A stretch of DNA of 64,000 nt, taken from contig NZ_LT629740.1 in NCBI RefSeq assembly GCF_900105165.1, forward strand, positions 3,286,001 through 3,350,000, read 5' to 3'. Made by a program: the position numbers and the translations under genes. This document shows, in pieces, positions 1 to 62,036 of the stretch. Source of the stretch: Mucilaginibacter mallensis (lineage in GTDB: Bacteria; Bacteroidota; Bacteroidia; Sphingobacteriales; Sphingobacteriaceae). Position 1 is the stretch's first letter. Every line of letters begins with the position of its first letter. The notes beneath the pieces were generated by a model. It searched no databases, had not been told where the DNA came from, and saw nothing but the letters and a program-made list of their open reading frames with translations.

Positions 1-133
1 TGCGGATAGATGCGCCTACCGCACGTTCATTACGTTCAAATATGGTTACTTTATAACCACGGATGGCCAAAGCCCGGGCTGTTGCCAGGCCCACAATGCC
101 TGCGCCAATTACTATTGCTGATGGTTGTTTCAT
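1..133 (-). CDS. FAD-dependent oxidoreductase, N-terminal part only (phosphonate-linked amine oxidase type)
   Basis: Only the first 44 codons lie in the window; the gene runs off the left edge. The residues form a classic Rossmann FAD-binding start with [13 protein letters not shown] and then an acidic end of strand 2 (FER), as in the glycine-oxidase/DAO family. Its ATG overlaps the stop of the DUF5690 gene by four bases (ATGA), so it is the third gene of a minus-strand operon with a phosphonatase-like hydrolase. The HpnW-type family (TIGR03364) sits in just this context and, as I recall, members oxidise 2-aminoethylphosphonate or its N-methyl form to phosphonoacetaldehyde. The family name rests on context more than on sequence, since the catalytic domain is out of view. 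Confidence 0.72.
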
Positions 134-1446
134 GTTGTTGCTATATTAAGCTGGTCGGCGGGTTTATTTTTACCCTGACTGCGGGCTATCCTTAAAAAAT
201 AAATTAACGATAGTATGGCGCAAATACCGCCTACGATGGCTACCGTCATCACCCCCTCTTTAAAAAATGTTCCCCAACTAATGTTAGGATGTCCCAGTTC
301 TCTTATCAATAAAACACTTACGCTGCCTAAATATCCCATGGAATCAGCCACGTAGATCAGGAAGCCTACATTGCCTTTGTAATGATAGGATGCCAGCAAA
401 CGTTCAAAAAATACAGCGTTATAAGGCACATAGCCAAAATAAAGCCCAAGGCCGGCTAAAGTCATCCAGGTCATGGCGTTTATTGCATTCAGGGCGAATA
501 ATATAGTGGCCCCACCAATAAGTATGCAACCGCCTATGATCATGAAGTGTATTACACTGAAAGCCTTAAGGTTTTTCTTGATAAGAATGAGCAAGCTCAT
601 GGCTATTAATACCACTACCGATATAATAGAATCAATTTTTGTGAAGATGGTATTATCCTTTACACCCAGGCTCGACCATATTTCAACTTCAAAATTATCC
701 CTTACATCGCGCATTATTGTTAGCAGCACATAGATAACAAGCGTGAGAATAATACCCGGTAAAAAAGTTCGCAGGAATCTTTTACGTTCCTCCGCATCCA
801 TTGGCAGGCGTTTGGTACGCAGCTTAACATCTTCGGCTGTTGGCGGTGGCATCAACTCCAAACAGAATACAAATAAAAGCAGCGGCAATACAAATAAAGC
901 CCCGGTCAAAAATGGCATCTGGTATTCACTCACGTGGAATGAGGCCATTAATGTGCGTGCTACTGTTTTCACAAAACCTGAAGCAAAAATGAGGCTGATG
1001 GATAATACCGCCGCCATAAATTCGGTTGATTTACGGCCTTCAAGATATCCGAATACCAGGCCCCATATCAAGCCCAGTGGGAAACCGTTTATAAACAGGA
1101 AAATGATATTGTAAGGCGCTGGAACAATGGCAAAACACAACAGCGCCAGCCACGCCACTCCTATTAAAACCAGGATACTTTTTGCCCTTTGACCAGGTTT
1201 TAACTCAGCAATAAATTTTATGCCATAAAACTTGCTCATGGTATAGCCTATGATCTGCGCAATTACCAGCCAAACTTTATAATCGATATGAAAATACTGC
1301 AGGCCGCTGTACGTCCCGGCTGAAAACCCTTTGCGAAAAGCATACATACAGGTATATGCCCCAAAGGACGAGATAGCAGCCAATACGGAGATCACCCCAT
1401 ATGGCCATTTGGCAACTTTTGCCCGCAGGCTGTGGGTCAGTTTCAT
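130..1446 (-). CDS. DUF5690 family membrane protein, probable phosphonate or organophosphate permease
   Basis: About 438 residues with ten to twelve hydrophobic segments and a layout like major-facilitator (UhpC/GlpT-like) transporters; the N-terminal [15 protein letters not shown] stretch is characteristic of DUF5690. The ATG at 1446 is chosen, two bases after the hydrolase stop; a GTG at 1449 overlapping that stop is also possible. The gene is sandwiched between the hydrolase and the FAD oxidoreductase with overlaps at both ends, so it is surely co-transcribed. Inference: it moves the phosphonate substrate, or an intermediate, across the inner membrane. No transport substrate has been read from the sequence itself. 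Confidence 0.85.
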
Positions 1447-1448
1447 CA

Positions 1449-2132
1449 CTATTGATTAATTATATCAATAACCTGTGCTATATCATCTATAATATGAGTT
1501 GGCTTGTACGGTTCCAGCTCATCGCGGCTAAAAGCACCTGTGGTTACACCTATACTATATAGGCAACCGGCATTCTGGCCTTCGCGAACATCTACTTCGG
1601 TGTCACCAACTTTTGCAACTTCTTCACTTCGTAATATCCCTCCCTCGCGCATCATTTTTTGGATCATGTACGGATACGGGCGCCCCAGCTCTACTTCGTC
1701 TGATCCTACCAAATAATCTATTAAACCTTTTTCTTTCCAGTTCAGTCGGCTGACCACCGTTTCGGCAATATCTTTTGAAAACCCGGTGTTGATACCCACC
1801 TGCACACCTTGTTCATGTAGCGCGGCAAAAGTTTCTTCAACATTTGGCAATGCTTCAATATCAGGCGATGTGCTGTAATATGCTATCATTTGCTCCACAA
1901 AAGCACGGTGTATTTTACCAACAAGCTCTGCCGTTATATTTTTTTCACGTTCAACAGAACGCAATATCTGCTTTATGGCTAAAGTTTTTTCATAACCCAT
2001 TAACGGATCAATAGTACTTACCTCTACATGGTAATCATACTTTTTTAAAGCCGACTGAAAAGCTTTACTTACTTCGTGATTATCCTTAACCGTGGTACCG
2101 GCAATGTCAAAAACAACTAATTTTATAGCCAT
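1449..2132 (-). CDS. Phosphonatase-like HAD hydrolase (phosphonoacetaldehyde hydrolase relative)
   Basis: A 227-residue HAD enzyme that should cleave the C-P bond of phosphonoacetaldehyde or a close relative. It has the HAD nucleophile motif DIAGTT (Asp9, with Ala11 at the position where phosphonatases, unlike phosphatases, carry Ala). The cap holds MGYEK, whose Lys49 aligns with the Schiff-base lysine of PhnX. Further matches are NTGFS, GRPYPYM and KVGDTEVDVREG. It is shorter than PhnX (about 265 residues), as in the TIGR03351 sister family that travels with the HpnW oxidoreductase. It is first in an operon with DUF5690 and the FAD enzyme and is preceded by the palindromic operator at 2152-2188. 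Substrate could differ from that of true PhnX. Confidence 0.87.
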   Translation of the reverse strand: MAIKLVVFDIAGTTVKDNHEVSKAFQSALKKYDYHVEVSTIDPLMGYEKTLAIKQILRSVEREKNITAELVGKIHRAFVEQMIAYYSTSPDIEALPNVEETFAALHEQGVQVGINTGFSKDIAETVVSRLNWKEKGLIDYLVGSDEVELGRPYPYMIQKMMREGGILRSEEVAKVGDTEVDVREGQNAGCLYSIGVTTGAFSRDELEPYKPTHIIDDIAQVIDIINQ

Positions 2133-2151
2133 AAAAAGATTAAATAATGTT

Positions 2152-2188
2152 CAGCAATGCTAAACTTAGTTTATTAATATCAAACTAA
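2152..2188 (-). promoter_or_regulatory. Promoter with palindromic operator of the phosphonatase operon
   Basis: Read on the minus strand, TTAGTTT, nine bases, AAACTAA (2188 to 2166) is followed by GTTTAG and a -7-like element TAGCATTG (2162 to 2155). The hydrolase ATG lies at 2132. The same 37-base arrangement, with 32 identical bases, precedes susC at 3720-3756. A palindrome lying just upstream of the -7 element suits a repressor that blocks polymerase. Confidence 0.75.
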
Positions 2189-2265
2189 ATTAATATTAAG
2201 ATAAAATTAATTAATCGAAGGGACAGAACTGCCCAGTGTTTACGGTAATAATCCAGATGCTGAAA

Positions 2266-2844
2266 TTACTTCTTCTCTTCAAAAAAGTAAACCACCAATA
2301 TGGTAGCCGTTTGTGAGGCAAGATTTTGTGGTGTGTGTGGTACCCGGCCATCAAATAATAAGGAATCGCCTTGTGACAAGGTGATACTTTCATTAGTAAA
2401 CTGGTAAACTATCTCGCCCGATAATATATATTTATACTCAAATGCCTCGGTTTCCACCATCGGCCTTTCAGCGCCTGGCTCCAGTTCCAATATTACAATA
2501 TCAACCGTTGATTGACTGATTACCTCTGTAAATATGCGCTGATAATGAAAGCCAATGGCATGCTCTTTTTCAAAATGCTCATAATCGCTTTTACGTTTAA
2601 CCAATATAGGGGGATGGTTACTTTTAGTGCGTATATCTTTAAAAAACTCGTTCAGGTCTATCTCCAGCGCTTTAATAATATCAATCAATACCATAAGCGA
2701 TGGAATAGTGCGGCTGTTTTCAATTTGTGAAATCAAGCCTTTACTTACATTAGCACGCAAAGCGAGTTCCTGTACCGTAATATTTTTTTCGCGGCGCTTT
2801 TCTTTTATATGATTACTAATCTGTATGAGGGTATCTTCTTCCAT
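2266..2844 (-). CDS. XRE-cupin transcriptional regulator
   Basis: A 192-residue two-domain regulator. An N-terminal helix-turn-helix of the HTH_3 type (about residues 7-60, with VQELALRANVSKGLISQIE) is followed by a C-terminal cupin barrel (about 115-190, with PGAERPMVETEAFEYKYILSG and GDSLLFDGRVPHTP), where small ligands usually bind. A longer reading from a TTG at 2868 is unlikely because it runs into the inverted repeat; ATG at 2844 is chosen. It lies between the hydrolase operon and the divergent phnZ-like gene and is the obvious candidate to control both and susCD. Ligand unknown; an aminophosphonate or phosphonoacetaldehyde is a guess. Confidence 0.88.
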   Translation of the reverse strand: MEEDTLIQISNHIKEKRREKNITVQELALRANVSKGLISQIENSRTIPSLMVLIDIIKALEIDLNEFFKDIRTKSNHPPILVKRKSDYEHFEKEHAIGFHYQRIFTEVISQSTVDIVILELEPGAERPMVETEAFEYKYILSGEIVYQFTNESITLSQGDSLLFDGRVPHTPQNLASQTATILVVYFFEEKK

Positions 2845-2868
2845 TGAGGTTAAGTCTTGGAGCGTCAA

Positions 2869-2899
2869 AGTTATTATTAGTAATAACTGTACAAAGTTA
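2869..2899 (-). promoter_or_regulatory. Promoter and inverted repeat of the XRE-cupin gene
   Basis: AGTTATTA and TAATAACT (2869-2876 and 2881-2888) form an 8-bp-arm inverted repeat around TTAG. Immediately upstream on the minus strand is a perfect Bacteroidota -7 element TAACTTTG (2899 to 2892). The repeat would cover the transcription start, fitting autoregulation. A second TAACTTTG occurs at 2873-2866. Confidence 0.55.
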
Positions 2900-2980
2900 A
2901 TTTTTGTTAATAAGCGTTAAATTTTTAAGTGTTGGTTACTAATCAGCATAATAAATAAGTTAGTGAACAATATTATGAAA

Positions 2981-2995
2981 AGTTAACAATTAACT
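2981..2995. promoter_or_regulatory. Short inverted repeat upstream of the phnZ-like gene
   Basis: AGTTAA-CAA-TTAACT, a perfect 6-bp-arm repeat about 40 bases before the phnZ-like ATG. It lacks the N9 spacing of the operators at 2152-2188 and 3720-3756, so it may bind a different protein or be chance in AT-rich DNA. Confidence 0.3.
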
Positions 2996-3032
2996 AATTT
3001 TAATAAGTTTCATTTGCCAAAAATCATATCCC

Positions 3033-3605
3033 ATGTTAGCCTTAAGTACCGAAACCAAAGTTGATAAAGTTTTTGCCCTGTATGAAAAATATGGTGATGA
3101 GGATTATATAGGCGAACCGGTTTCACAACTGGAACACATGTCACAAGCAGCAGCATTGGCTGAGGCTGAGGGGCATGATGACGAGGTGATACTTGCCGCC
3201 TTTTTTCATGATATCGGTCATTTGTGCGCCCCGGGCGAAGTGGAAAGTATGGACGGCATGGGCAATGTTGACCACGAAAAACTAGGCGCCGACTTTTTGC
3301 GCGAACTTGGTTTTTCTGAACGCCTGGCTACTTTGGTTGAAAGCCACGTGGTTGCCAAACGATACCTTACTTATAAGTATCCTGAATATTATAACAAATT
3401 ATCACCCGCAAGCAAAACTACACTCGAGTTTCAGGGCGGAGTGATGAACGCAGAGGAGGCACACACCTTTGAAGCCAACCCCGATGCCGAGTTAATTATT
3501 AAATTAAGATACTGGGACGATAAGGCTAAGGAGATGCATATCCCGGTAGATAATATCAATCATATTAAATCATTAGCTGTTAAGCATTTAAATAAAGACA
3601 ATTAA
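3033..3605 (+). CDS. phnZ: PhnZ-type HD-domain phosphonate oxygenase
   Basis: A 190-residue HD-domain protein of the mixed-valent di-iron oxygenase group, which cleaves the C-P bond of 1-hydroxy-2-aminoethylphosphonate to glycine (or a similar acid) and phosphate. Residues line up with PhnZ at a constant offset of one: Tyr25 and Glu28 of DYIGEP (the substrate-contact lid), His35, His59-Asp60 and His63 of FHDIGH, His81, His105 of ESHVVAKRYL and Asp162 of RYWDD. So all metal ligands are present and it is not a plain HD phosphohydrolase. It is divergent from the regulator and followed by susCD. The partner 2-oxoglutarate dioxygenase PhnY is not in view; it could lie left of the window or be absent. 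Confidence 0.9.
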   Translation: MLALSTETKVDKVFALYEKYGDEDYIGEPVSQLEHMSQAAALAEAEGHDDEVILAAFFHDIGHLCAPGEVESMDGMGNVDHEKLGADFLRELGFSERLATLVESHVVAKRYLTYKYPEYYNKLSPASKTTLEFQGGVMNAEEAHTFEANPDAELIIKLRYWDDKAKEMHIPVDNINHIKSLAVKHLNKDN

Positions 3606-3718
3606 TCTTAAACTCTCGTAAGATTAATTTATTGTAAGCAGATTGTAACACTCCCGTTACCTTAAATCTTCCTGCTTAACATTCCCTACATATAATCTTG
3701 ACCATACGGTAATATTAT

Positions 3719-3756
3719 CTTAGTTTATAAATAATAAACTAAGTTTAGTATTGCTG
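3719..3756 (+). promoter_or_regulatory. Promoter with palindromic operator of the susC-susD operon
   Basis: CTTAGTTTAT and ATAAACTAAG (3719-3728 and 3734-3743) are perfect 10-bp arms around AAATA. A -7-like element TAGTATTG follows at 3746-3753, 42 bases before the susC ATG. The palindrome fills the space between the -33 and -7 positions, as expected for repression. Bases 3720-3756 match the hydrolase promoter at 32 of 37 positions. Confidence 0.78.
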
Positions 3757-3795
3757 CATGAAACAATCTCATTATTCCTCAATTAAAAACAGCAA

Positions 3796-6700
3796 ATGAA
3801 ACAAATTTACCAGCAATTAAAGATTGCAATAACAGCATTGTTATTCTTTCTGATTCCGGCTATAACGTTCGGGCAAACAAAGATCAGCGGTATCGTAACC
3901 GATGAGAATAAACTGCCGCTGCCGGGTGTTAACGTAACGATCAAAGGCGGTCAAAAAGGTACAGTTACCGATATTGATGGCCGTTTTGAAGTTAAAGCGA
4001 ACAGTGACCAAACTTTGGTTTTCAGCTTTATCGGCTATGATAAAAAAGAAATATTGGTTAGCAGCCAAACTGTTATTAATGTTAGCATGCAAGGCGGTGC
4101 TAAAGCATTAAACGAGGTGGTGGTAACCGCGCTAAATGTTAAAAAAGACGTAAAACGTATTGGCTATGCTACTCAAACAGTTGATGGCGATGCCTTAACT
4201 ACAGCCCGCGACCCTAACCCTATTACGGGCTTAGCAGGTAAGGTTGCAGGTTTATCAGTTGGTGCATCAGCCGAGTTATTGGGTACACCTAATGTATTGA
4301 TACGGGGTGATGCAGTTACCTTATATGTAGTAGATGGTTTCCCTATCAATACAGATACCTTCAACATTAGCCCTGATGATATTGAAAGCTATACTGTGTT
4401 GAAAGGCCCTGCTGCAGCTGCATTATACGGTAGCCGTGCTTTAAACGGAGCGATTCTGATTACTACCAAAAAGGGTAATAAAAACAAAAAAGGCTTTACT
4501 GTTGATTTAAACAGCAGTACTATTATTAACAAGGGATTCCTTGCCTTCCCACGTGTACAACACTCATACGGCCCGGGCGAAAACGAATTTTATGAGTTTG
4601 TTGATGGTAAAGGTGGTGCTCCCGGTGGTGTGGATAGTGATTATGATATTTGGGGACCATATTTTGCAGGTCAGCTGATCCCGCAGTTTGACAGCCCTGT
4701 TGTTAACGGTGTGCGTACTGCTACACCGTGGACTGCCCGTGGTGCTAACAACTTAGCTAACTTTTTACAAACTGGTTATCAAACCAATAACGAAGTAGCA
4801 TTAAGCGCGGTAGGCGATACTTATAATATCCGTTTTTCGGCCTCACAACAACATCAGCAAAGCTATATACCTGATAACTACCTGGATATTGCTAATGCTA
4901 ACTTATATGCTTCATTCCATCCAATAGATTCCCGCTTTACAATCGAAGCAAATATTGATTTTAACAGGCAAACTACTGATCAGTTTCCTGACGTTACCTA
5001 CGGCCCTAACAGCTTAATCTATGATTTAGCTATATGGACAGGTGCTGACTGGAGTGTTAACCAACCGATAATTAAAGCTGTATGGCAGCCGGGTAAAGTT
5101 GGCGTGCAATCAGAATTTGAAGAGTACACCCGTTACCATAACCCATGGTTTATGGTTGAGGACTGGAAACGCGGTCATTACAAAAATGACACTTATGGCT
5201 ACTTATCAGGAAACTTTAAGATCGATAACAACCTGAACGTAACATTACGTAGTGCTATTGATACTTATAACATCTTACGTACTGAAGATCTGCCATACTC
5301 TGCACACCCATACGGCCGTGAAGGCAACATGGGTGATTATCGCGAAGATCGTCGCGATTTGTTTGATAACAACACTGAGTTATTGTTAAACTATAATTAC
5401 ACTATTAAAAAGTTTGTAAATCTTAGCGGTTTGGTAGGTGGTAACCTGCGTAACTTCAGCTATAACTCAAGCTGGGTATCTACTGATTATTTGAGTGTAC
5501 CGGGAGTATATTCTTTTAATAACTCTTTAAACCCATTACAGGCAACCAGCTTTAATTCACAAATGCGTGTGCTAAGTGCTTTTTACTCATTAGATGCTAC
5601 ATTTGGCAACTTCCTGACCATATCAAGCACTGGCAGGGTTGATAAATCATCAGCTTTCCAAACACCAACCACCTATTATTATCCAAGCTTATCAGCAGCA
5701 TCAGTAATATCTGATTATGTAAAACTGCCTGATTTTATTTCCTTCTTAAAAGTTAGGGCTTCCTATTCAAATGTACGTTCTGACGAAACCAGCCCAACCG
5801 TAGGCCCTGCTCCATTCAGTTCAATTACAGCTTTTGGTGGCAGTACAGGCCCTTCATTATATGATAACCCATTAGGTTATGGCAGTACTTATCTATCACC
5901 GTATAATGGGCCTAATTATTCTTTGAATCCTGCTTATAATCAAGGTAAGCCATACAATAATCAGCCTGCCGGTTATAATACCAATAACTTATATCAGACC
6001 GGATTAGTTACTTCAACCCGTGTTAATTATGAAGAAGGTTTTGATATCAAATTCTTAAAGAACCGTATTGGATTAAGTGCGACTGCTTTCCAATATATTG
6101 ATGGCCCTGAAGTATTGGCTAATACCATTTCAACAGCTACAGGCTATAATATTGAATATACAAACGCTCTAAAAACTAAAAAAACAGGCTATGAGGCCTC
6201 ATTAACCGGTACTCCTGTAAAATCGAATGATTTTACATGGAATGCTATGGTTAACGTATCAACTTATAAACAAGTATTTGATGAATTACCTGCGGGCCAA
6301 ACTTTATATCCGTATAACAACGGTTATTTTACCAAAGGCGAACGTATAGATAATTTTTATGGTACTGCATTCGTACGTAATAAACAAGGTCAGATCGTAA
6401 ACGGTTCAAACGGTGAGCCATTGGTAAACCCGGTTGATCAATTCCTGGGCCACTTAAATGCCGATTACCAGTGGAGTATTTATAACAGTTTCCGTTACAA
6501 ACAAATTACTCTAGGTTTCCAGTTTGATGGCTCAGTTGGTGGTGTTATGGTTGATTACATGCACAAGAAAACCATGGTTGGTGGTGCTAACCTTGAAACT
6601 GCTGAAGGTGCCCTTGGCGCTGCCCGTTACCAGGATTGGGTGAACTTTGGTAAAAAAGGTTACAATGGTTCATACGTAGGTCCGGGTGTTGTTATCTCTA

Positions 6701-7083
6701 ACGGCGTTGCTCCAAACTATGATTCAAAAACAGGTGCAATTCTTAACTATAACCAATTGCAATTTGCTCCAAATACACAAACTGCTTTTGTACAGGAGTA
6801 TGTAAGCCAATATTATAATACCGACGAAGCAAACTTAATGAGCAAAACTTATGCAAAACTGCGTGAGGTAACCATAGCTTATGCATTCCCTAAAGAATGG
6901 TTAGCACATACATTCATCCAAAACGCATCAGCATCATTATTTGGTCGTAACCTTTTGTACTTCTACAAAGATGCAAGGTTTAAAGATGTGGATCTGGACC
7001 AATATAACAGCCCGCAAGCTACCTCTGTGCTACAATCGCCAACAGTACGCAGCTACGGACTTGACCTTAAACTTTCATTCTAA
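3796..7083 (+). CDS. SusC/RagA-type TonB-dependent outer-membrane transporter
   Basis: A 1095-residue outer-membrane transporter. In order: signal peptide (ending near ITFGQ, residue 27), a carboxypeptidase-regulatory-like domain (about 28-105, TKISGIVTDENKLPLPGVNVTIKG), a TonB-box-like segment LNEVVVTAL, the plug domain (about 110-225, with VLIRGDAVTLYVVDGFPI and VLKGPAAAALYGSRALNGAI) and a beta-barrel ending in an aromatic Phe (LDLKLSF). It forms an operon with the SusD-like lipoprotein 14 bases downstream. No glycoside hydrolases lie near, so this is not a normal polysaccharide locus. The operator shared with the phosphonatase operon suggests uptake of a phosphonate-bearing compound; that is inference. 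Confidence 0.93.
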   Translation: MKQIYQQLKIAITALLFFLIPAITFGQTKISGIVTDENKLPLPGVNVTIKGGQKGTVTDIDGRFEVKANSDQTLVFSFIGYDKKEILVSSQTVINVSMQGGAKALNEVVVTALNVKKDVKRIGYATQTVDGDALTTARDPNPITGLAGKVAGLSVGASAELLGTPNVLIRGDAVTLYVVDGFPINTDTFNISPDDIESYTVLKGPAAAALYGSRALNGAILITTKKGNKNKKGFTVDLNSSTIINKGFLAFPRVQHSYGPGENEFYEFVDGKGGAPGGVDSDYDIWGPYFAGQLIPQFDSPVVNGVRTATPWTARGANNLANFLQTGYQTNNEVALSAVGDTYNIRFSASQQHQQSYIPDNYLDIANANLYASFHPIDSRFTIEANIDFNRQTTDQFPDVTYGPNSLIYDLAIWTGADWSVNQPIIKAVWQPGKVGVQSEFEEYTRYHNPWFMVEDWKRGHYKNDTYGYLSGNFKIDNNLNVTLRSAIDTYNILRTEDLPYSAHPYGREGNMGDYREDRRDLFDNNTELLLNYNYTIKKFVNLSGLVGGNLRNFSYNSSWVSTDYLSVPGVYSFNNSLNPLQATSFNSQMRVLSAFYSLDATFGNFLTISSTGRVDKSSAFQTPTTYYYPSLSAASVISDYVKLPDFISFLKVRASYSNVRSDETSPTVGPAPFSSITAFGGSTGPSLYDNPLGYGSTYLSPYNGPNYSLNPAYNQGKPYNNQPAGYNTNNLYQTGLVTSTRVNYEEGFDIKFLKNRIGLSATAFQYIDGPEVLANTISTATGYNIEYTNALKTKKTGYEASLTGTPVKSNDFTWNAMVNVSTYKQVFDELPAGQTLYPYNNGYFTKGERIDNFYGTAFVRNKQGQIVNGSNGEPLVNPVDQFLGHLNADYQWSIYNSFRYKQITLGFQFDGSVGGVMVDYMHKKTMVGGANLETAEGALGAARYQDWVNFGKKGYNGSYVGPGVVISNGVAPNYDSKTGAILNYNQLQFAPNTQTAFVQEYVSQYYNTDEANLMSKTYAKLREVTIAYAFPKEWLAHTFIQNASASLFGRNLLYFYKDARFKDVDLDQYNSPQATSVLQSPTVRSYGLDLKLSF

Positions 7084-7097
7084 ATTAAATTAGATAA

Positions 7098-8756
7098 ATG
7101 ATCATGAAAAAAACATTTAAAATATATTTACTGGTGCCGGCACTGTCATTAATGGCATTAACCAGTTGCAAAAAGAGTTTTGTCGAATTAACTCAAAACA
7201 ACAACAATCCAAGCAGTGTACCTGCTGCATTGTTAATGAACGGTATATTAACCAACCTACCCGATCTGCCTGATGGCGCCACAACCAGCAGCACACAAGG
7301 TAGCATGGTGTATGCATCAGCATCAAACAAAGCTGAGATCTGGAGTCAATACTACATTTATAACTATAACTATTATGGTAATAATACCTATGATTTTGAT
7401 AGCGGAGCCGATTACTACACAACAATAAAAAATGTTGTAACAATGGAAACGGTGGCTGCTAGCGCAGGTGGTGCGGCTATCAACCCTTACGAGGCAATGG
7501 GTAAATTCTTCAGAGCTTATTTCTTCAGCAAAATGAGCATGGAGAGAGGTGATATACCTATGACCCAGGCATTAAAAGGCCTCAGCAATCTTACCCCTAC
7601 TTATGACACCCAAAAAGCGGTGATGGTACAAGCTTTAGCATGGCTTGAAAGCGCTAACGCTGACATGACCCAATTAATCGCAACCCCATCAATTGGCGGT
7701 ACGGGCTTAGGTGCAACCTTAGGCGGCGACATCTATTTCGGTAATAACCTGGTTGAATGGCAAAAAGTGGTAAACACTTTCAGATTAAGATTATTGATAC
7801 AATTAAGCAAAAAAGTATCAGATCCTGATTTGAATGTTGCATCGCAATTCAACAGTATTGTTACCAACCCAACAAAATATCCGCTAATACAAAGTGCTGC
7901 TGATAACCTGCAATATGTATTTGTTAGCCCAACAAATTACTATCCGCAAACACCTGACAATTTTGGTCAAAGCGGTTCAAGGCAAAATACATCTGCAACT
8001 TACATTAGCCTACTTACTAAATTACAGGATCCGCGCGTTTTTGTAACTGCCGAGCCTGCAAGGTATTTGGTTGATACCCTGAAACAAAGCCCAACTGATT
8101 TTAAATCATTCGTTGGTGCTGATCCCGGATTAGACCTTGGTGTAATGTATAGCCAGGCAGGTTTACAACGCTATTCGTTCCTGAACCGCAAACGTTACTA
8201 CTCAACTTATACAGGTGAGCCAAGTATACAAATTGGTTATGCTGAGTTACAGTTTAACATAGCTGAAGCTATAAACCGCGGCTGGACTGCGGGCAATGCC
8301 GAAACCTACTACGAGGCTGGCATACAGGCTTCAATGGCATCATACAGCATCCCAACAACCGGTTCATTTACAGCATATTTTTATCGCCCTGGATCAACAA
8401 GTGTTGCTGTGTTAGGTAATTATGATGCTTACACTATTAACACTAACTGGAACACTTATTATAACCAAACAGCTGTAAAATATGCAGGTGGTACAACTGG
8501 TTTAACCCAGATATTACAACAGAAATACCTGGCATTATTCCGACACTCAGGTTTGGAGGCATACTTTACCTATCGCCGTACCGGTGTGCCAACCTTTACT
8601 ACTGGCCCGGGTACAGATAACGGTCAGCGTATAGCACAACGTTTCCAATATCCGCCAAGCGAGCGTACCGCAAATACTGCCAATTATAATACAGCATTAG
8701 CTAACCAATATGGTGGCAATGATGATATAAACGGTATTATGTGGATACTGAAATAG
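7098..8756 (+). CDS. SusD-like outer-membrane lipoprotein (SusD-like_2 type)
   Basis: A 552-residue surface lipoprotein that caps the SusC barrel and binds the ligand. It begins with a lipoprotein signal whose lipobox is LTSC, so Cys23 (counting from ATG 7098) would be acylated; an ATG at 7104 is an equally good start. The segment FVELTQNNNNPSSVPAALLMN and the alpha-helical, Tyr/Asn-rich body fit the SusD-like_2 branch rather than the starch-type SusD. It follows susC directly and ends at a strong terminator (8778-8813), so the two form a unit. The ligand cannot be read from sequence. Confidence 0.9.
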   Translation: MIMKKTFKIYLLVPALSLMALTSCKKSFVELTQNNNNPSSVPAALLMNGILTNLPDLPDGATTSSTQGSMVYASASNKAEIWSQYYIYNYNYYGNNTYDFDSGADYYTTIKNVVTMETVAASAGGAAINPYEAMGKFFRAYFFSKMSMERGDIPMTQALKGLSNLTPTYDTQKAVMVQALAWLESANADMTQLIATPSIGGTGLGATLGGDIYFGNNLVEWQKVVNTFRLRLLIQLSKKVSDPDLNVASQFNSIVTNPTKYPLIQSAADNLQYVFVSPTNYYPQTPDNFGQSGSRQNTSATYISLLTKLQDPRVFVTAEPARYLVDTLKQSPTDFKSFVGADPGLDLGVMYSQAGLQRYSFLNRKRYYSTYTGEPSIQIGYAELQFNIAEAINRGWTAGNAETYYEAGIQASMASYSIPTTGSFTAYFYRPGSTSVAVLGNYDAYTINTNWNTYYNQTAVKYAGGTTGLTQILQQKYLALFRHSGLEAYFTYRRTGVPTFTTGPGTDNGQRIAQRFQYPPSERTANTANYNTALANQYGGNDDINGIMWILK

Positions 8757-9350: not shown

Positions 9351-11570
9351 ATGAGTGCGTTAAATAATAATTTATTTACAAAATTGAAGTTTTCCTTTAC
9401 GTTAACATTCTTATTATTTTATCTAACAGGTTTCGCTGCTTTTAGCAACGGCAGTATTGATAGTATTAAAGGTTTACTACCCCATTCGCTTAATAATAAC
9501 ACCAATGCCGACACGGCTACTATAAACCGCTTAAATAAACTTGCTGAAGATTATTTTCATACCAACCCCGATAGTACTTACTACTATGCAAAGAAAAGTA
9601 TTGCCCTGGCTAAAAAAATAAATTACAGTGCGGGTCTAGCCCGCGGCCTACTGCAAACAGGCCATGTAAGTTATTTTAATGGTAAGACGGCAGAAGCGCG
9701 ACAAGATTTTGATGAAGCAACAACTATCTTTAAAAACCTGCGTGATTATAAGGGCTTAAGTGCCTGCTATATATCCTATGGGCGCATGTACACTTTGCTG
9801 GCCAATTATAACCTGGCCCTTAACTACCTTAATTTAGCAACCAAGGCAAACAAGCATATCAATAATGAAGAAGGGCTAGCTGATACCTATAAAAACATTG
9901 GCATTGTTTATTATGCCATGGGGCAATTGCCAAACGCGCTTGATTTTTATTATAAAGCCCTGTTTATCGCTGTTAAAAATCACTCCACTATTCTTTCGGG
10001 CGAAATATATAATGACATAGGTGTTGTGCTGCAAAACATGGGGGTATACCCCAACGCACTTGAATATTATAAAAAAGCGCTCAATATTATTCAGAATGAA
10101 AATGATTTGCAGGGCGTTAGCACAATGAATGAGAATATTGGCGAAGTTTTACTTGCTCAAACATCATATGATAATGCTATTGTTTATTTAAAAAAGGGAT
10201 TAGCTATTACCAAAAAACAAAACGACATTGATGGCTTAAGTTCTGTTTATGCTGATCTGGGTTTATGCTATGCGCATAAAGATCAAATGAAACTGGCTAT
10301 CAGCTACCTTGATACAGCATTGGGATTAGCAGAAAAATACAAATTTGTTTATAACCAGGCATACGCGTCAATAGGCCTGGCTACGGCGTATAATATGCAA
10401 AAGGATTATAAAAACGCTTATAAATATGCAATGGAGGGTCAGGCGCTTGCCTTAAAGCTTCGCAATTTATCAGTACGTGCCAGTGCCGCTTTGCAACTCA
10501 ACCAAACTTTAGCGGGCTTAGGGCAATACCACCAGGCCTATGTTTTATTGAACCAGTATATCGACCTAAAGAATCAGCTAAAGGATAATGAAAGTATCCA
10601 AAAACTCACCTCCTATAATTACGAGCTGAACTTTGTAACCAAACAGCGCCAGCTGGAACAGCAGCAACGGGTACATGAACTGCTGTTTCAACAAAAAATA
10701 CATAACCAACGGTTGTTGAACACCATCTTCCTGATTATTATACTGGCAATGATAGCTACTTCAGTTGTTTATTACAGGCAAAAACAAAAGCAAAAAAGGA
10801 TAAATGCGATGCTGCAAGACAGGAACAAAGAAGTATTGCAACAAAAAGCCAGCATTGATGAACAGGCACACAAATTAAATGAGCTTAATATATTAAAAGA
10901 CAGGCTTATTTCGGTATTAGCACATGATCTCAGGGCACCGCTTAGCACACTACGCGGCCTGTTTAGCTTATTGCAGGATAACACCATCAGCCATAGAGAA
11001 CTGGTTGAAATGATACCCAACGTGCTAAAAAATCTAGAATATACATCCGACTTTTTAGATACCCTTTTATTTTGGATGAACAGCCAGATGGAGAACTTTG
11101 AAAGCTCGGTAAAAAGCTTTTCAATAAAAGAGATAGTGGCTTATGAGATAGAACATTACCAGGAACAGGCTGCACTAAAAGGAATAAAACTAATTGATCA
11201 TGTACCGCATTACCTGATGGCTACCGCCGATCCTAACTCTATAAGGATTGTGATACGCAATTTGATAACCAATGCCATTAAATTCTCAAAGAAGAATGAT
11301 ACTGTGGAGATCTACGCCTCGCCCGATAATGAGCAAAACATACTGATCAGGATAAAGGATACCGGTATAGGTATTCCGCCAAAACAACTGGCCAAGCTTT
11401 TCAAAAGTAAAATTGACAGCAAAACCGGCACAAATAATGAGTCGGGGACCGGCATGGGCCTTATGTTTTGCAAAGATCTGGTTGAAAAATGCAACGGCCA
11501 TATATGGGTAACCACCGAGCAAAATGTAGGCACTGAATTTTCATTCACCGTACCTGCAAGCTTAGCTTAG
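9351..11570 (+). CDS. TPR-containing sensor histidine kinase
   Basis: A 739-residue membrane sensor. After a signal peptide (to about residue 30) come tandem tetratricopeptide repeats (about 75-420), a coiled coil, one transmembrane helix near 456-475 and a second coiled coil. The kinase core has the H-box HDLRAPLSTLRG (His525), N-box RNLITNAIKFS, G1 DTGIGIP and G2 SGTGMGL, ending in a HATPase domain. The periplasmic TPR layout is common in Bacteroidota kinases. No response regulator gene lies beside it, so it is an orphan in this window. It starts 594 bases after susD, behind a terminator, and there is no direct evidence that it serves the phosphonate locus. Confidence 0.9.
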   Translation: MSALNNNLFTKLKFSFTLTFLLFYLTGFAAFSNGSIDSIKGLLPHSLNNNTNADTATINRLNKLAEDYFHTNPDSTYYYAKKSIALAKKINYSAGLARGLLQTGHVSYFNGKTAEARQDFDEATTIFKNLRDYKGLSACYISYGRMYTLLANYNLALNYLNLATKANKHINNEEGLADTYKNIGIVYYAMGQLPNALDFYYKALFIAVKNHSTILSGEIYNDIGVVLQNMGVYPNALEYYKKALNIIQNENDLQGVSTMNENIGEVLLAQTSYDNAIVYLKKGLAITKKQNDIDGLSSVYADLGLCYAHKDQMKLAISYLDTALGLAEKYKFVYNQAYASIGLATAYNMQKDYKNAYKYAMEGQALALKLRNLSVRASAALQLNQTLAGLGQYHQAYVLLNQYIDLKNQLKDNESIQKLTSYNYELNFVTKQRQLEQQQRVHELLFQQKIHNQRLLNTIFLIIILAMIATSVVYYRQKQKQKRINAMLQDRNKEVLQQKASIDEQAHKLNELNILKDRLISVLAHDLRAPLSTLRGLFSLLQDNTISHRELVEMIPNVLKNLEYTSDFLDTLLFWMNSQMENFESSVKSFSIKEIVAYEIEHYQEQAALKGIKLIDHVPHYLMATADPNSIRIVIRNLITNAIKFSKKNDTVEIYASPDNEQNILIRIKDTGIGIPPKQLAKLFKSKIDSKTGTNNESGTGMGLMFCKDLVEKCNGHIWVTTEQNVGTEFSFTVPASLA

Positions 11571-33964: not shown

Positions 33965-35794
33965 ATGGATAGAAATTCGTTCACAGGATTATTCCTGATC
34001 ATGCTGATAGTTTTTGGCTCGTTTTATTTGATGAAACCATCAAAACAAGAGATCAAAAAAGAACAGGAAAGACAGCATATTGACTCTTTAAAAAAGGCAG
34101 GTAAAATTGTTACCCCTGCCACAGCAGCTAAAGCTGATACCAGTAAAGTTGCCGTTAAGCTTGATTCCGCGCAATTAAAAGGTGCTTTCGGACCAGCATT
34201 AGCAGGTACTGAAAAATTTATCACACTTGAAAATAAAGACCTACGCTTAAAGTTAACTACTCACGGCGGCAGAATATATTCAGTTGAGTTAAAGAACTTT
34301 AAAACATTTGACGGCAAGCCGCTCATTTTATTTGATGGCACGCAAAACAGCTTTGGTATAAACCTGGCTGCCGAAAACAAGAACTTTGATACCAACAACC
34401 TGTATTTTACATCGGCTACAAGCGGCATTACCGTTGCTGATAAGGATTCAGGATCAGTTACCCTGCGTTTAAACTACAGCGCAACCCAGTATATAGACTA
34501 TATTTATACACTGAACGGCACTGGTTACAAAGTAGGTTTCACCATTAAACCAACCGGGCTTGATAATGTGGTTGCCAACAGCAACACGCTTAACATTAAC
34601 TGGACAGCCTACCTGAAAAAACAGGAAAAGGACATGGAGTTGGAGCGCCGCTATTCAACCGTATACTATAAAACGCTTGATGATAACGTTGATTACCTGA
34701 GCGAAAACAAGGATGATCAAAAAGATATCACCGATGGTAAAGCACAGTGGGTTTCATTTAAAGGGCACTTTTTCTCTGATGTTATTTTAGCAAACAACGG
34801 TTTTGCAAAAACAAATATTTCAGTTGCAATTGATACCAGCGACCACGTAAATACCAAACAAATGAAGGCCGACCTGCAGCTTGCAAAAAGCGCTGACGGC
34901 ACCTTCCCTATGAGCTTTTACTTTGAGCCGAACCAGTTCCACATGCTGCAAGCCGAAGGTTATAGCCTGGAGAAACAGATCAACTTAGGTCCGGGTCCGT
35001 TAAAGTATATCAACAGGTTTGCTACGCTGCCGGTATTTGATTTCCTTAAACAGTTTAACTGGAACTACGGCTTAATCATATTAGCGCTTACCGTTATATT
35101 AAAGCTGGTTTTATCGCCGCTTACTTATAAGTCATACTTATCGATGGCCAAAATGAGGGTGTTGAAACCTGAAATGGACGAGATAAAAGCTAAAGTTGGT
35201 GAAGATAACCCTACGCTGTTACAACAGGAATACCTGAAGCTCTATAAAAAGGCCGGGGTAAATCCATTGGGTGGATGTTTGCCGTTATTGATACAGATGC
35301 CGATAGTTTTCGCATTCTTCCGCTTTTTCCCAAGCTTATTTGAGCTGCGTGGCCAGAGCTTCCTGTGGATGCATGACTTATCAACGTATGATGCTGTAAT
35401 AACTTTCACCCGTATCCCAGTGATCGGTATAGATCACTTGAGTTTGATGTGTTTGCTGATGACCATATCTACATTAATCTATACCTACTTTAATAATCAG
35501 ATCTCAGGTGCTACAGGCCAGATGAAATATATCGGTTATATCACCCCCGTTATATTCCTGGTTACGCTGAACAGCTACCCTGCTGGTTTGAATTACTATT
35601 ACTTCTTGGCGAACATGTTAACCTTCCTGCAACAATACCTAATCAGGTTTATGGTTGATGACAAGAAGATACATGCGCAGATACAGGAAAACAAAAAGAA
35701 ACCTGAGGATACCAAAAAGAAGAAATCAGGCTTCCAGGCACGTATGGAAGAAATGATGAAACAAAAACAACTGGCGGATACTAAGAAGAAGTAG
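33965..35794 (+). CDS. yidC: Membrane protein insertase YidC
   Basis: A 609-residue insertase that helps fold inner-membrane proteins. It has an N-terminal helix (FLIMLIVFGSFYLM), a large periplasmic beta domain (about 85-355) and a C-terminal five-helix core starting near FLKQFNWNYGLIILALTVILKL, with NPLGGCLPLLIQMPIVFAFFRF. The tail is Lys-rich, as in YidC proteins that contact ribosomes. It ends before a perfect terminator. Confidence 0.97.
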   Translation: MDRNSFTGLFLIMLIVFGSFYLMKPSKQEIKKEQERQHIDSLKKAGKIVTPATAAKADTSKVAVKLDSAQLKGAFGPALAGTEKFITLENKDLRLKLTTHGGRIYSVELKNFKTFDGKPLILFDGTQNSFGINLAAENKNFDTNNLYFTSATSGITVADKDSGSVTLRLNYSATQYIDYIYTLNGTGYKVGFTIKPTGLDNVVANSNTLNINWTAYLKKQEKDMELERRYSTVYYKTLDDNVDYLSENKDDQKDITDGKAQWVSFKGHFFSDVILANNGFAKTNISVAIDTSDHVNTKQMKADLQLAKSADGTFPMSFYFEPNQFHMLQAEGYSLEKQINLGPGPLKYINRFATLPVFDFLKQFNWNYGLIILALTVILKLVLSPLTYKSYLSMAKMRVLKPEMDEIKAKVGEDNPTLLQQEYLKLYKKAGVNPLGGCLPLLIQMPIVFAFFRFFPSLFELRGQSFLWMHDLSTYDAVITFTRIPVIGIDHLSLMCLLMTISTLIYTYFNNQISGATGQMKYIGYITPVIFLVTLNSYPAGLNYYYFLANMLTFLQQYLIRFMVDDKKIHAQIQENKKKPEDTKKKKSGFQARMEEMMKQKQLADTKKK

Positions 35795-35807
35795 TTTTTG
35801 AGTCAGG

Positions 35808-35944
35808 AAAGACCGTAAGTCAGCAAGTCTGAAAGTTTAAAAATACAAGACCCCGTTAGGTATACCTAACGGGGTCTTTTGCTACACATCTTCCGGACTT
35901 GCTGACTTACGGTCTTTTCCGACTTACTGACTTACGGTCTTTTT
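35808..35944. repeat. Nested inverted repeat with GACCGTAAGTCAGCAAGTC arms
   Basis: AAAGACCGTAAGTCAGCAAGTC arms (35808-35829 and, inverted, 35896-35917; 22 bp each, perfect) enclose the yidC terminator. A third, slightly changed inverted copy follows at 35921-35944. Confidence 0.8.
35847..35880 (+). terminator. Rho-independent terminator of pyrG-yidC
   Basis: A perfect 32-bp palindrome with arms AAGACCCCGTTAGGTA (35847-35862) and its complement (35863-35878), then TT. The GC-rich stem base makes it strong. Confidence 0.9.
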
Positions 35945-35990: not shown

Positions 35991-37355
35991 ATGTATGCAA
36001 TTGTTGATATTGAGACCACCGGGGGGCATGCCAGCGCCAATGGCATAACGGAAATTGCCATATGCATACATAATGGCAAAAAGATAATAGAACGCTATTC
36101 AACCCTGGTTAATCCACAACGGGATATCCCTATCTACATCAGCGCGTTAACGGGTATCACCAATGATATGGTGCGTGATGCTCCATTATTTGAGGATGTG
36201 GCCCATGACGTTTATCACCTGCTTAACGGTAAAATATTTGTAGCCCACAACGTAAATTTCGATCATTCATTTGTGCGCCATCATTTGCTGGCATCCGGCT
36301 ACGATCTGCAATGCAATAAACTGTGTACCGTAAGGCTTGGGCGTAAAATACTGCCGGGGCTGCCATCATACAGCTTAGGTAAGCTATGTCATCATTTGGG
36401 TATTACCAATGAAAGCCGTCACCGTGCCGCAGGTGATGCCGAAGCTACTTCACAACTCTTTACCCTGCTACTGCAAAGCGATAAAGGCAACCATATTCCT
36501 GATGCGTTAAAACAACGATCAAAGGAACAGGTGCTCCCACCCCATTTGCCTAAAAATGACCTGGAACAATTACCCAACATGCCCGGTGTATATTATTTCC
36601 ATGATCAAAAAGGGAAAGTAATATATGTGGGCAAGGCCAAAAATCTTAAAAAACGAGTAAGCAGTCATTTTACCGGTAATAACCCGGGCTTACAGCGACA
36701 GGAATTTCTGCGCAATATCTGCCACATCACCTACCAGCAATGCGGCACGGAGCTGATTGCATTTGTATTGGAAGCTGTTGAAATAAAACGCCTGTGGCCC
36801 AAATATAATCGTTCGTTAAAACGTTTTGAGCATGCCTATGCCCTGTATGCATTTGAAGATCAGAGCGGCTACCTGCGCTTAGCTGTAGATAAACACCGCA
36901 AATACAATACGCCATTATATACCTGCAACTCTTTACTTGAAGGCCACAGCTTACTGGTTAAGTTAATTGAAACCTTCGACCTTTGCCCAAAGCTGTGTTT
37001 TATACAGCGCAATACCGAACCTTGTACAGGAAATACCAAAACATCATGCGCCTGTACAGGCCATGAAAGTGCCGATGATTACAACAAAAAGGTAAACCTG
37101 GCCATTGATGAATTAAAACAGGCATTACCCACCTACGCTATCCGCGATGAAGGTCGCACAGGTGAAGAAAACAGTTGTATCCTGATTGAAAAAGGGCAGT
37201 TTTACGGCATGGGTTATATCTCCCATTATTTTGATGTAGATAACCTGCAGCAACTAAAAAATCACCTCACACCCTACCCGGGTAATGATTATATAAAGAA
37301 TATGGTATCCAACTACGCCACTAGATTTCCGGAGCGGAAGGTGGTGTTTGCCTAA
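35991..37355 (+). CDS. DnaQ-like exonuclease fused to a GIY-YIG nuclease
   Basis: A 454-residue two-domain nuclease. Residues 1-165 are a DEDDh 3'-5' exonuclease: DIETTG (Asp and Glu), NVNFDHSF and HRAAGDAEAT. Residues about 195-280 are a GIY-YIG domain like that of UvrC/Cho, with MPGVYYFHDQKGKVIYVGKAKNLKKR. The C-terminal part has a cysteine-containing stretch (CTGNTKTSCACTG). The fusion suggests a repair enzyme that nicks and trims. It lacks UvrC's UvrB-binding and HhH regions. Single gene. Confidence 0.87.
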   Translation: MYAIVDIETTGGHASANGITEIAICIHNGKKIIERYSTLVNPQRDIPIYISALTGITNDMVRDAPLFEDVAHDVYHLLNGKIFVAHNVNFDHSFVRHHLLASGYDLQCNKLCTVRLGRKILPGLPSYSLGKLCHHLGITNESRHRAAGDAEATSQLFTLLLQSDKGNHIPDALKQRSKEQVLPPHLPKNDLEQLPNMPGVYYFHDQKGKVIYVGKAKNLKKRVSSHFTGNNPGLQRQEFLRNICHITYQQCGTELIAFVLEAVEIKRLWPKYNRSLKRFEHAYALYAFEDQSGYLRLAVDKHRKYNTPLYTCNSLLEGHSLLVKLIETFDLCPKLCFIQRNTEPCTGNTKTSCACTGHESADDYNKKVNLAIDELKQALPTYAIRDEGRTGEENSCILIEKGQFYGMGYISHYFDVDNLQQLKNHLTPYPGNDYIKNMVSNYATRFPERKVVFA

Positions 37356-37379
37356 GTATTATTTTACTATCCACATTGT

Positions 37380-37464
37380 CATTTCGAACGATAGTGAGAA
37401 ATCTTCTGCACTATGCATAGTCCGCAATTCTGTTGAAGAAGATTTCTCACTATCGTTCGAAATG
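37380..37464. repeat. Long inverted repeat, CATTTCGAACGATAGTGAGA family
   Basis: Perfect 28-bp arms (37380-37407 and 37437-37464) flank a 29-base loop. The sequence belongs to the GTCATTTCGA...GAGAAATCTTC family of dispersed repeats common in Bacteroidota. It lies exactly between two converging genes and could end both transcripts. Confidence 0.85.
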
Positions 37465-61919: not shown

Positions 61920-62036
61920 TTTCGGATGTTCGATTTCGGAATTAGAATATGCAATTTTTGATTTCGGATGTTCGATTTGGGATTTAAATGAATTATATAC
62001 TGTTTTAAATAAATCCCAAATCGAACATCCGAAATC
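61920..62036. repeat. Direct and inverted repeats, TTTCGGATGTTCGATTT family
   Basis: The 17-mer occurs at 61920-61936 and 61962-61978 and inverted near 62018-62036. The 26-bp arms 61960-61985 and 62011-62036 are perfect. It lies between convergent genes. Confidence 0.82.

Follow-up and report, generated by a model that had tools for sequence, protein, structure and literature searches.

The window, a stretch of 64,000 nucleotides from the genome of Mucilaginibacter mallensis, holds near its start two groups of genes that diverge from one another, one encoding enzymes of phosphonate families and the other a SusC/SusD pair. The features of the locus are as follows:

1..133, minus strand (the rest lies beyond the window, at L003:11003-12133): start of an FAD-dependent oxidoreductase of TIGR03364, PbfD type, by profile match
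130..1449, minus strand: DUF5690 membrane protein, a proposed inner-membrane phosphonate permease (Pfam, predicted fold)
1449..2132, minus strand: phosphonatase-like (PhnX-like) HAD hydrolase (TIGR03351, motif MG..K)
2149..2188, minus strand: tandem operator and promoter of the catabolic operon (sequence inspection, promoters of relatives)
2266..2844, minus strand: XRE-cupin regulator of 192 aa with HTH_3 and Cupin_2 domain matches, a proposed repressor
3033..3605, plus strand: PhnZ-like HD-domain oxygenase (TIGR03276), whose own upstream stretch is without the operator
3720..3759, plus strand: tandem operator and promoter of susCD (sequence inspection, promoters of relatives)
3796..7083, plus strand: SusC/RagA TonB-dependent outer-membrane channel (449.8 against a cut-off of 368.25)
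7098..8756, plus strand: SusD-like lipoprotein (PF12771/PF12741; 194.3 bits for PF12771)
L003:8403-10958, minus strand, outside the window and after the FAD gene: phosphocholine-specific phospholipase C with a twin-arginine signal (profile score 821.8 against 580.25)

The catabolic operon runs on the minus strand in the order hydrolase, DUF5690, FAD oxidoreductase and phospholipase C, and the XRE-cupin gene is situated upstream of it in the same direction. A protein resembling a TPR sensor kinase was noted by eye at window positions 9351-11570, ~600 bases after susD.

The hydrolase scores below both PhnX cut-offs (183.9-184.5 vs 218.9 for TIGR03351 and 117 vs 220 for TIGR01422), and its best matches in the PDB are solved phosphonatases. 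Among 61 orthologs of more than 50% identity, DxAGTT and GRP are present in all 61 and MG..K, the motif that presumably holds the Schiff-base lysine of phosphonatases, in 59. The FAD oxidoreductase lies above the TIGR03364 cut-off (442 vs 285.1), as does the PhnZ-like protein above that of TIGR03276 (220.7 bits vs 214.6); the best PDB match of the latter is to the structures of PhnZ (E 4e-49). These matches to phosphonate families agree with the initial annotation, which had read the genes as phosphonate-degradation genes. The partner of PhnZ, PhnY*, is a PhyH-family oxygenase; no such partner was found near the PhnZ-like gene, the nearest of the eight PhyH-family matches in the genome being more than 100 kb away. 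PhnW was considered as the first enzyme of the pathway and rejected, as none of its 7 matches in the genome exceeds the cut-off and the best reaches 52.2 bits.

The two outer-membrane proteins constitute an importer of the SusCD type, in which a channel of the SusC/RagA subfamily adjoins a SusD lipoprotein. For the DUF5690 protein, Pfam returned DUF5690 only, and a profile search for sequence homology to solved members gave no PDB chain at E<=1. Its structure was modelled from 38 sequences with a pLDDT of 89.0 and a pTM of 0.87. In a Foldseek search with this model, the nine top ranks are occupied by structures of G6PT (SLC37A4), with query TM values of 0.53-0.64 at 19-21% identity, and other MFS transporters follow from rank 10 on. 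G6PT is a member of the organophosphate:phosphate antiporter (OPA) family, and the predicted fold of DUF5690 is that of an OPA-like MFS protein. PhnD (TIGR01098) and PhnJ have no match in the genome; the same searches matched 8 of 14 and 1 of 14 control genomes, respectively. With its G6PT-like predicted fold, and with no match to PhnD or PhnJ in the genome, DUF5690 is the leading candidate of the locus for carrying phosphonates over the inner membrane.

The initial annotation described one palindrome lying before both the phosphonatase-like gene and susC, and this likeness is confirmed: exact copies of TTAGTTT-N9-AAACTAA lie at 2166-2188 and 3720-3742, and the oriented stretches 2188-2152 (minus strand) and 3720-3756 (plus strand) are equal at 32 of 37 positions. 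The likeness between the two promoter stretches spans from about -10 to +40 relative to the palindrome start. No pair of stretches alike at 32 or more of 37 positions occurs in 10 mononucleotide-shuffled copies of the window; the real window has four, the operator pair and three near-adjacent repeats. These repeats, of at least 32/37 identity, lie at 35760-35880, 37320-37380 and 61920-61980. The palindrome itself stands as described; the description of the element as a single palindrome does not, since the right-hand part of the 37-mer falls within a second, weaker palindrome (2165-2149 and 3743-3759) at 20 bp from the first. Two 17-bp palindromes, GTTTA-N7-TAAAC, follow one another with a spacing of 20 bp, one over position -33 and the other over -7.

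At the catabolic promoter, palindrome 1 has its core at 2185-2169 (GTTTG-N7-TAAAC) and palindrome 2, with 1 mismatch, at 2165-2149 (GTTTA-N7-TGAAC), 20 bp from the first; the -33-like box is TTTG (2184-2181) and the -7-like box TAGCATTG (2162-2155). At the susCD promoter, the core of palindrome 1 (3723-3739) is exact, while that of palindrome 2 (3743-3759) has an exact left half and a degenerate right half; the boxes are TTTA (3724-3727) and TAGTATTG (3746-3753). The boxes of both promoters are labelled after what we take to be the -33/-7 promoter consensus. Palindrome 1 overlaps the -33-like TTTG or TTTA and palindrome 2 the -7-like box. Tandem palindromes over -33 and -7 occupy the position expected for a repressor, and the location of the operators at the promoter cores suggests repression. 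A search pattern that included the consensus TTTG tail of the -7 box was discarded; it found matches in 4 of the 149 genus genomes (1 for the control) and missed the window, where TATTG or CATTG stands in the box.

Across the whole genome of 6,013,956 bases, the 23-bp palindrome has two exact occurrences, before the phosphonatase-like gene and before susC, and the reversed control pattern gives 0 matches over the same bases. The palindrome is accordingly no common dispersed sequence, in keeping with the earlier claim of a specific operator. Allowing two mismatches in the 23-mer yields 95 sites genome-wide against 136 for the control, which is background, and this search was abandoned as a site finder. 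The shorter pattern GTTTA-N7-YAAAC has 42 forward and 37 reverse matches, corresponding to 54 places of which 25 are symmetric; the control has 40 and 29, and the short motif alone is therefore not enriched genome-wide. Among the symmetric places, that at 1632121 is found where a SusC-like reading frame begins, one lies within a gene and one in an intergenic G+C-rich inverted repeat; 16 others are distributed between predicted reading frames (12) and the intervals between them (4).

The genome has three strong PhnX-like genes (213.7, 213.5 and ~184 bits, all below the cut-off of 218.9; the next match has 57.4), and all three have a site upstream. In the two besides that of the window, the site is ~220 and 80 bp from the gene start, and both promoters have a one-mismatch partner site 20 bp away. 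With 54 places and 225 bp per gene, the chance of one site upstream of a given gene is ~0.002. Both of these genes are found, each with the operator, among SusCD-like pairs in a region (G000:C1:1617000-1656800; L201, L202) that also holds GH92, GH95, GH20, GH16 and fucosidase-family genes; use of phosphonoglycans by this region is possible.

A second XRE-cupin locus in the same genome (G000:C1:3448478-3463000; L094, L198) encodes a regulator 64% identical to that of the window, a SusCD pair, a DUF5690 protein (61%), a TIGR03364 enzyme, two fucosidase-family proteins and phosphoesterase-like genes. Of its three exact cores, one directly precedes susC, one precedes a phosphodiesterase-like gene, and one lies where a frame diverging from the latter starts; they are not tandem, with 3 mismatches at 20 bp. 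Among the paralogous XRE-cupin loci of other genomes, exact intergenic cores are observed in L093 (tandem, 20 bp), L095, L098, L101 and L108, as they are in L198. No exact GTTTA-N7-TAAAC lies between genes in L096, L097, L099, L100, L102 and L103; one-mismatch cores, sought in L099, L100 and L103, are present in all three. At L103:6012-19831, PhnA (495.2 vs 407.55), phosphonoacetaldehyde dehydrogenase (680.1 vs 635.65) and a TIGR03364 enzyme are encoded. These phosphonate genes lie downstream of a SusCD pair and an XRE-cupin gene, with fucosidase and phosphodiesterase-like genes upstream, and L100 and L101 resemble L103 by the first residues of their proteins. L098 combines a PhnX-like gene (218.6 vs 218.9) with a GlpT-like permease and a phosphonate-linked alcohol dehydrogenase just below its cut-off. 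Paralogous regulators with the site are present in several other phosphonate loci, and not in all of them. The operator is thus common to the two promoters of the window, which are among several such places in the genome.

Conservation of the operator was studied in relatives by scanning 200 bp upstream of genes for exact GTTT-N9-AAAC. A search of 149 genus genomes detected the XRE gene in 91, and the main locus was taken from 71; the other 20 XRE-bearing genomes, mostly fragmented assemblies, were dropped before counting. A total of 91 loci were scanned, comprising the 71 from the XRE search (that of the window included) and 20 chosen from the HD search, which had matches in 97 genomes; ten further stretches with paralogous XRE genes were also read. 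The counts that follow are inflated by the relatedness of the species. The site is present before susC in 76 of 77 loci with the XRE gene, including the window, and in 0 of 1 without, and before the first catabolic gene (the hydrolase, else DUF5690) in 73 of 77 with it and 2 of 4 without. The latter two are L176 and L177, in which one site still precedes the hydrolase. Before the PhnZ-like gene, the site occurs in 4 of 78 loci with the XRE gene and 0 of 6 without, and is absent from the window; an operator at this gene as a general feature was rejected on the basis of the 4 in 78. The reversed control gives 1/78 at susC, 0/81 at the catabolic gene, and 1/84 at the PhnZ-like gene. The core of the palindrome, which the initial annotation had proposed to seek in related genomes, is hence kept before susC and the first catabolic gene in most XRE-bearing loci.

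Every promoter with paired exact sites shows a spacing of 20 bp, as seen in 22 pairs upstream of susC, 32 upstream of the catabolic gene and 1 upstream of the PhnZ-like gene. Extra sites with up to 2 mismatches peak again at 20 bp and are also seen at other offsets, among them -48 and -98 (susC) and -26 (catabolic gene). The XRE-bearing exceptions have a one-mismatch site in L092, L053, L073 and L075 and none in the 200-bp stretch of L085; the latter has a relocated DUF5690 gene with a one-mismatch copy of the 23-mer farther upstream.

The gene content of the 71 main loci is well preserved, with HD in 67, DUF5690 in 66, FAD in 65, SusC in 67, SusD in 65 and the phospholipase in 43, and 60 have XRE, HD, DUF5690, FAD, SusC and SusD together. 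The hydrolase is present at 50% identity or more in 46 and is absent or below 50% in 25. In six of the 71, a divergent SusCD pair (43-55%) takes the same place behind the same operator. L043, L045, L047, L064, L066 and L069 are without a hydrolase of 50% identity and retain the operator before DUF5690; in the first three, a start codon with a short frame was noted by eye as a remnant.

A second set was seeded with the HD protein and retains 80 loci out of 532 relatives, with genomes that mostly belong to the first set as well; it covers Mucilaginibacter, Pedobacter, Hymenobacter, Algoriphagus and others, and susC could be judged in 66 loci. The site stands at susC in 57 of 58 loci with an XRE gene; of the 8 loci in which no XRE gene reaches 55% identity, 2 have it (control 1/66). 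In L276 and L279 an XRE gene of 48% identity adjoins susC and the site is present; L283 has an XRE gene of 48% and no site within 200 bp. The Hymenobacter loci without XRE at 55% identity have no site (0/5), despite SusC proteins 67-69% identical; three of the five have an XRE relative of 33-34% nearby. In Algoriphagus and a Cyclobacteriaceae genome, the site GTTTAGCAAAATTAAAC is found beside the HD gene, and the two Algoriphagus loci have an XRE gene of 57%.

The best NCBIfam match of the XRE-cupin protein is PuuR, at 46.3 bits vs a cut-off of 211, which places it outside that equivalog. The stretch VSKGLISQIENSRTIPSL, which we take to be the recognition helix and what follows, is nearly unchanged among the aligned XRE-cupin proteins, including those of L096, L097, L099, L100 and L103, where sites are lacking; being alike with or without sites, it is compatible with a common operator and cannot tell the two kinds of locus apart. 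In Mucilaginibacter, a genus of soil bacteria, and its relatives, placement of the same DNA switch before an import pair and apparent C-P breakdown genes suggests a single regulator for uptake and use. The initial annotation named the XRE-cupin protein as the probable regulator. In support of it, the XRE-cupin gene accompanies the operator in most loci, and it does so even in some loci whose other genes differ; from linkage, co-occurrence and conservation, we infer that this protein is the binder of GTTTA-N7-TAAAC.

The operator common to the two promoters is thus confirmed; it is conserved, at full length it is specific, and the loci that carry it form a set linked to phosphonates. We assign a probability of about 0.72 to the reading in which a shared operator and an XRE-cupin regulator govern a phosphonate regulon, whose binding, repression, inducer, substrate and transport direction are deduced from sequence. 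Repression by the XRE-cupin protein is its best-supported form. With the inducer absent, two XRE-cupin dimers would sit on one face of the DNA, 20 bp or about two helical turns apart, and would cover the -33 and -7 elements, such that two transcripts are silenced. One would encode the PhnX-like hydrolase, the DUF5690 permease, the PbfD-type oxidase and, in many species, the exported phospholipase C; the other would encode SusCD. Binding of an aminophosphonate or of phosphonoacetaldehyde in the cupin domain would release the repressor. SusCD would then carry the compound across the outer membrane, and DUF5690 across the inner membrane, perhaps against phosphate. The FAD enzyme would form phosphonoacetaldehyde, which PhnX would convert to acetaldehyde and phosphate, and the PhnZ-like enzyme would deal with the 1-hydroxy form. 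Import of phosphonates by SusCD is likewise the best-supported reading, held with less assurance than the part concerning operator, regulator and regulon.

The strongest alternative concerns the cargo: SusCD may serve not free phosphonates but a breakdown product of a phosphonate-bearing glycan or lipid, or a nutrient used alongside. We consider this rather unlikely, and it would be compatible with the regulator part of the preferred explanation. SusCD systems often bind large ligands. Similar sites at loci with fucosidase-family and phosphodiesterase-like proteins, and PhnX-like genes with the site in a region of GH92, GH95 and GH20 genes, would agree with it, as would the phosphocholine-specific phospholipase C, which has an export signal in the genome of the window; its gene is found in 43 of 71 loci, a hint that lipid head groups are the source. 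The conserved block of the window is against it, as it otherwise consists of phosphonate-type enzymes, with no glycosidase among the genes compared. A clearly less probable alternative is that the element is an activator site, over which the XRE-cupin protein or another factor would recruit RNA polymerase to a weak -33 element when phosphonate is present. The imperfect -33-like box of susC (TTTA) and its -7-like box with a mismatch, both relative to the consensus that we assume, are reminiscent of activator-dependent promoters; palindrome 2 is seated on the -7 box itself, though, the usual place of a repressor. That a promoter was recently duplicated and no specific regulator is involved, as the equality of 32 of 37 bases within one genome might suggest, is highly improbable, given that most of the relatives examined keep the element at both places with its spacing unchanged and that it recurs at other genes of the same pathway.

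Beyond the repressor reading for this locus, we tentatively envisage a family of XRE-cupin repressors with GTTTA-N7-TAAAC operators that could run a Bacteroidota regulon for phosphonate-decorated glycans and lipids, a view we hold as possible rather than probable. Surface phospholipase C, phosphodiesterases and fucosidases would free conjugates of AEP, N-methyl-AEP or hydroxy-AEP, several SusCD pairs would import the conjugates, and DUF5690 would represent a new family of phosphonate/phosphate antiporters. PbfD would feed PhnX or PhnY-PhnA, while PhnZ would take the hydroxy form. AEP and methyl-AEP decorate invertebrate and protist glycans, according to the part of PMC6994554 considered, and hydroxy-AEP occurs in an Acanthamoeba polysaccharide and a Bdellovibrio lipid, as stated in the consulted text of PMC8154272.

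The phosphonate importers described in the literature consulted act at the inner membrane (ABC systems and AepP), and a conserved operator linking SusCD to aminophosphonate breakdown offers a case in which a dedicated route across the outer membrane can be tested directly. The locus supplies a candidate for the regulator and a possible role for DUF5690, a family so far named as of unknown function, and the operator may serve as a DNA signature for finding more phosphonate loci in Bacteroidota. Among the literature matches listed, judged by title and abstract opening and with most subscription journals outside the scope, none describes the operator or regulator, and DUF5690 was not found in the literature searched.

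Several features of the locus have counterparts in known systems. The window regulator shares HTH_3 and Cupin_2 with PuuR-like XRE-cupin regulators; it differs from PuuR in scoring far under the PuuR cut-off, in its gene neighbourhood and in its tandem 20-bp operator. In the portion of PMC10590968 used here, PbfC/PbfD convert N-methyl-AEP, and some AEP, to phosphonoacetaldehyde, and TIGR03364 is given as the family of a PbfD1. The window resembles this PbfD/PhnX route in having a TIGR03364 enzyme beside a PhnX-type hydrolase in a genome without a PhnW over the cut-off. It differs from what that portion describes in that the block adds a PhnZ-like oxygenase, SusCD and DUF5690 and in that the PhnX-like protein falls under the equivalog cut-offs. 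PhnZ is reported beside hydrolytic clusters (PMC8154272, in part) and to be frequently paired with PhnA or PhnX (PMC9381506, in part). AepP, as described in PMC8316502, is a GlpT-like MFS permease for 2-aminoethylphosphonate, and DUF5690 is likewise an organophosphate-antiporter-type MFS protein beside phosphonate enzymes, although the link is through the predicted fold only, with no sequence match to solved chains.

The initial annotation held that a phosphonate-dedicated SusCD pair would be new; pairs beside phosphonate genes are not wholly so, since the section of PMC8115612 consulted places PusCD pairs next to phosphonate-degrading enzymes in Flavobacterium. Visual inspection of the hydrolase promoter showed a Pho-box-like direct repeat, CTTAAC-N5-CTTAAC, in some of the relatives; it has 2 matches in the genome of the window, neither near the locus. 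In both Flavobacterium and the window, SusCD-like pairs lie beside phosphorus enzymes. In that section, which names neither such a regulator nor such an operator, PusCD are defined by their response to phosphate depletion, whereas a locus-specific XRE-cupin regulator with a tandem operator is indicated for the locus of the window.
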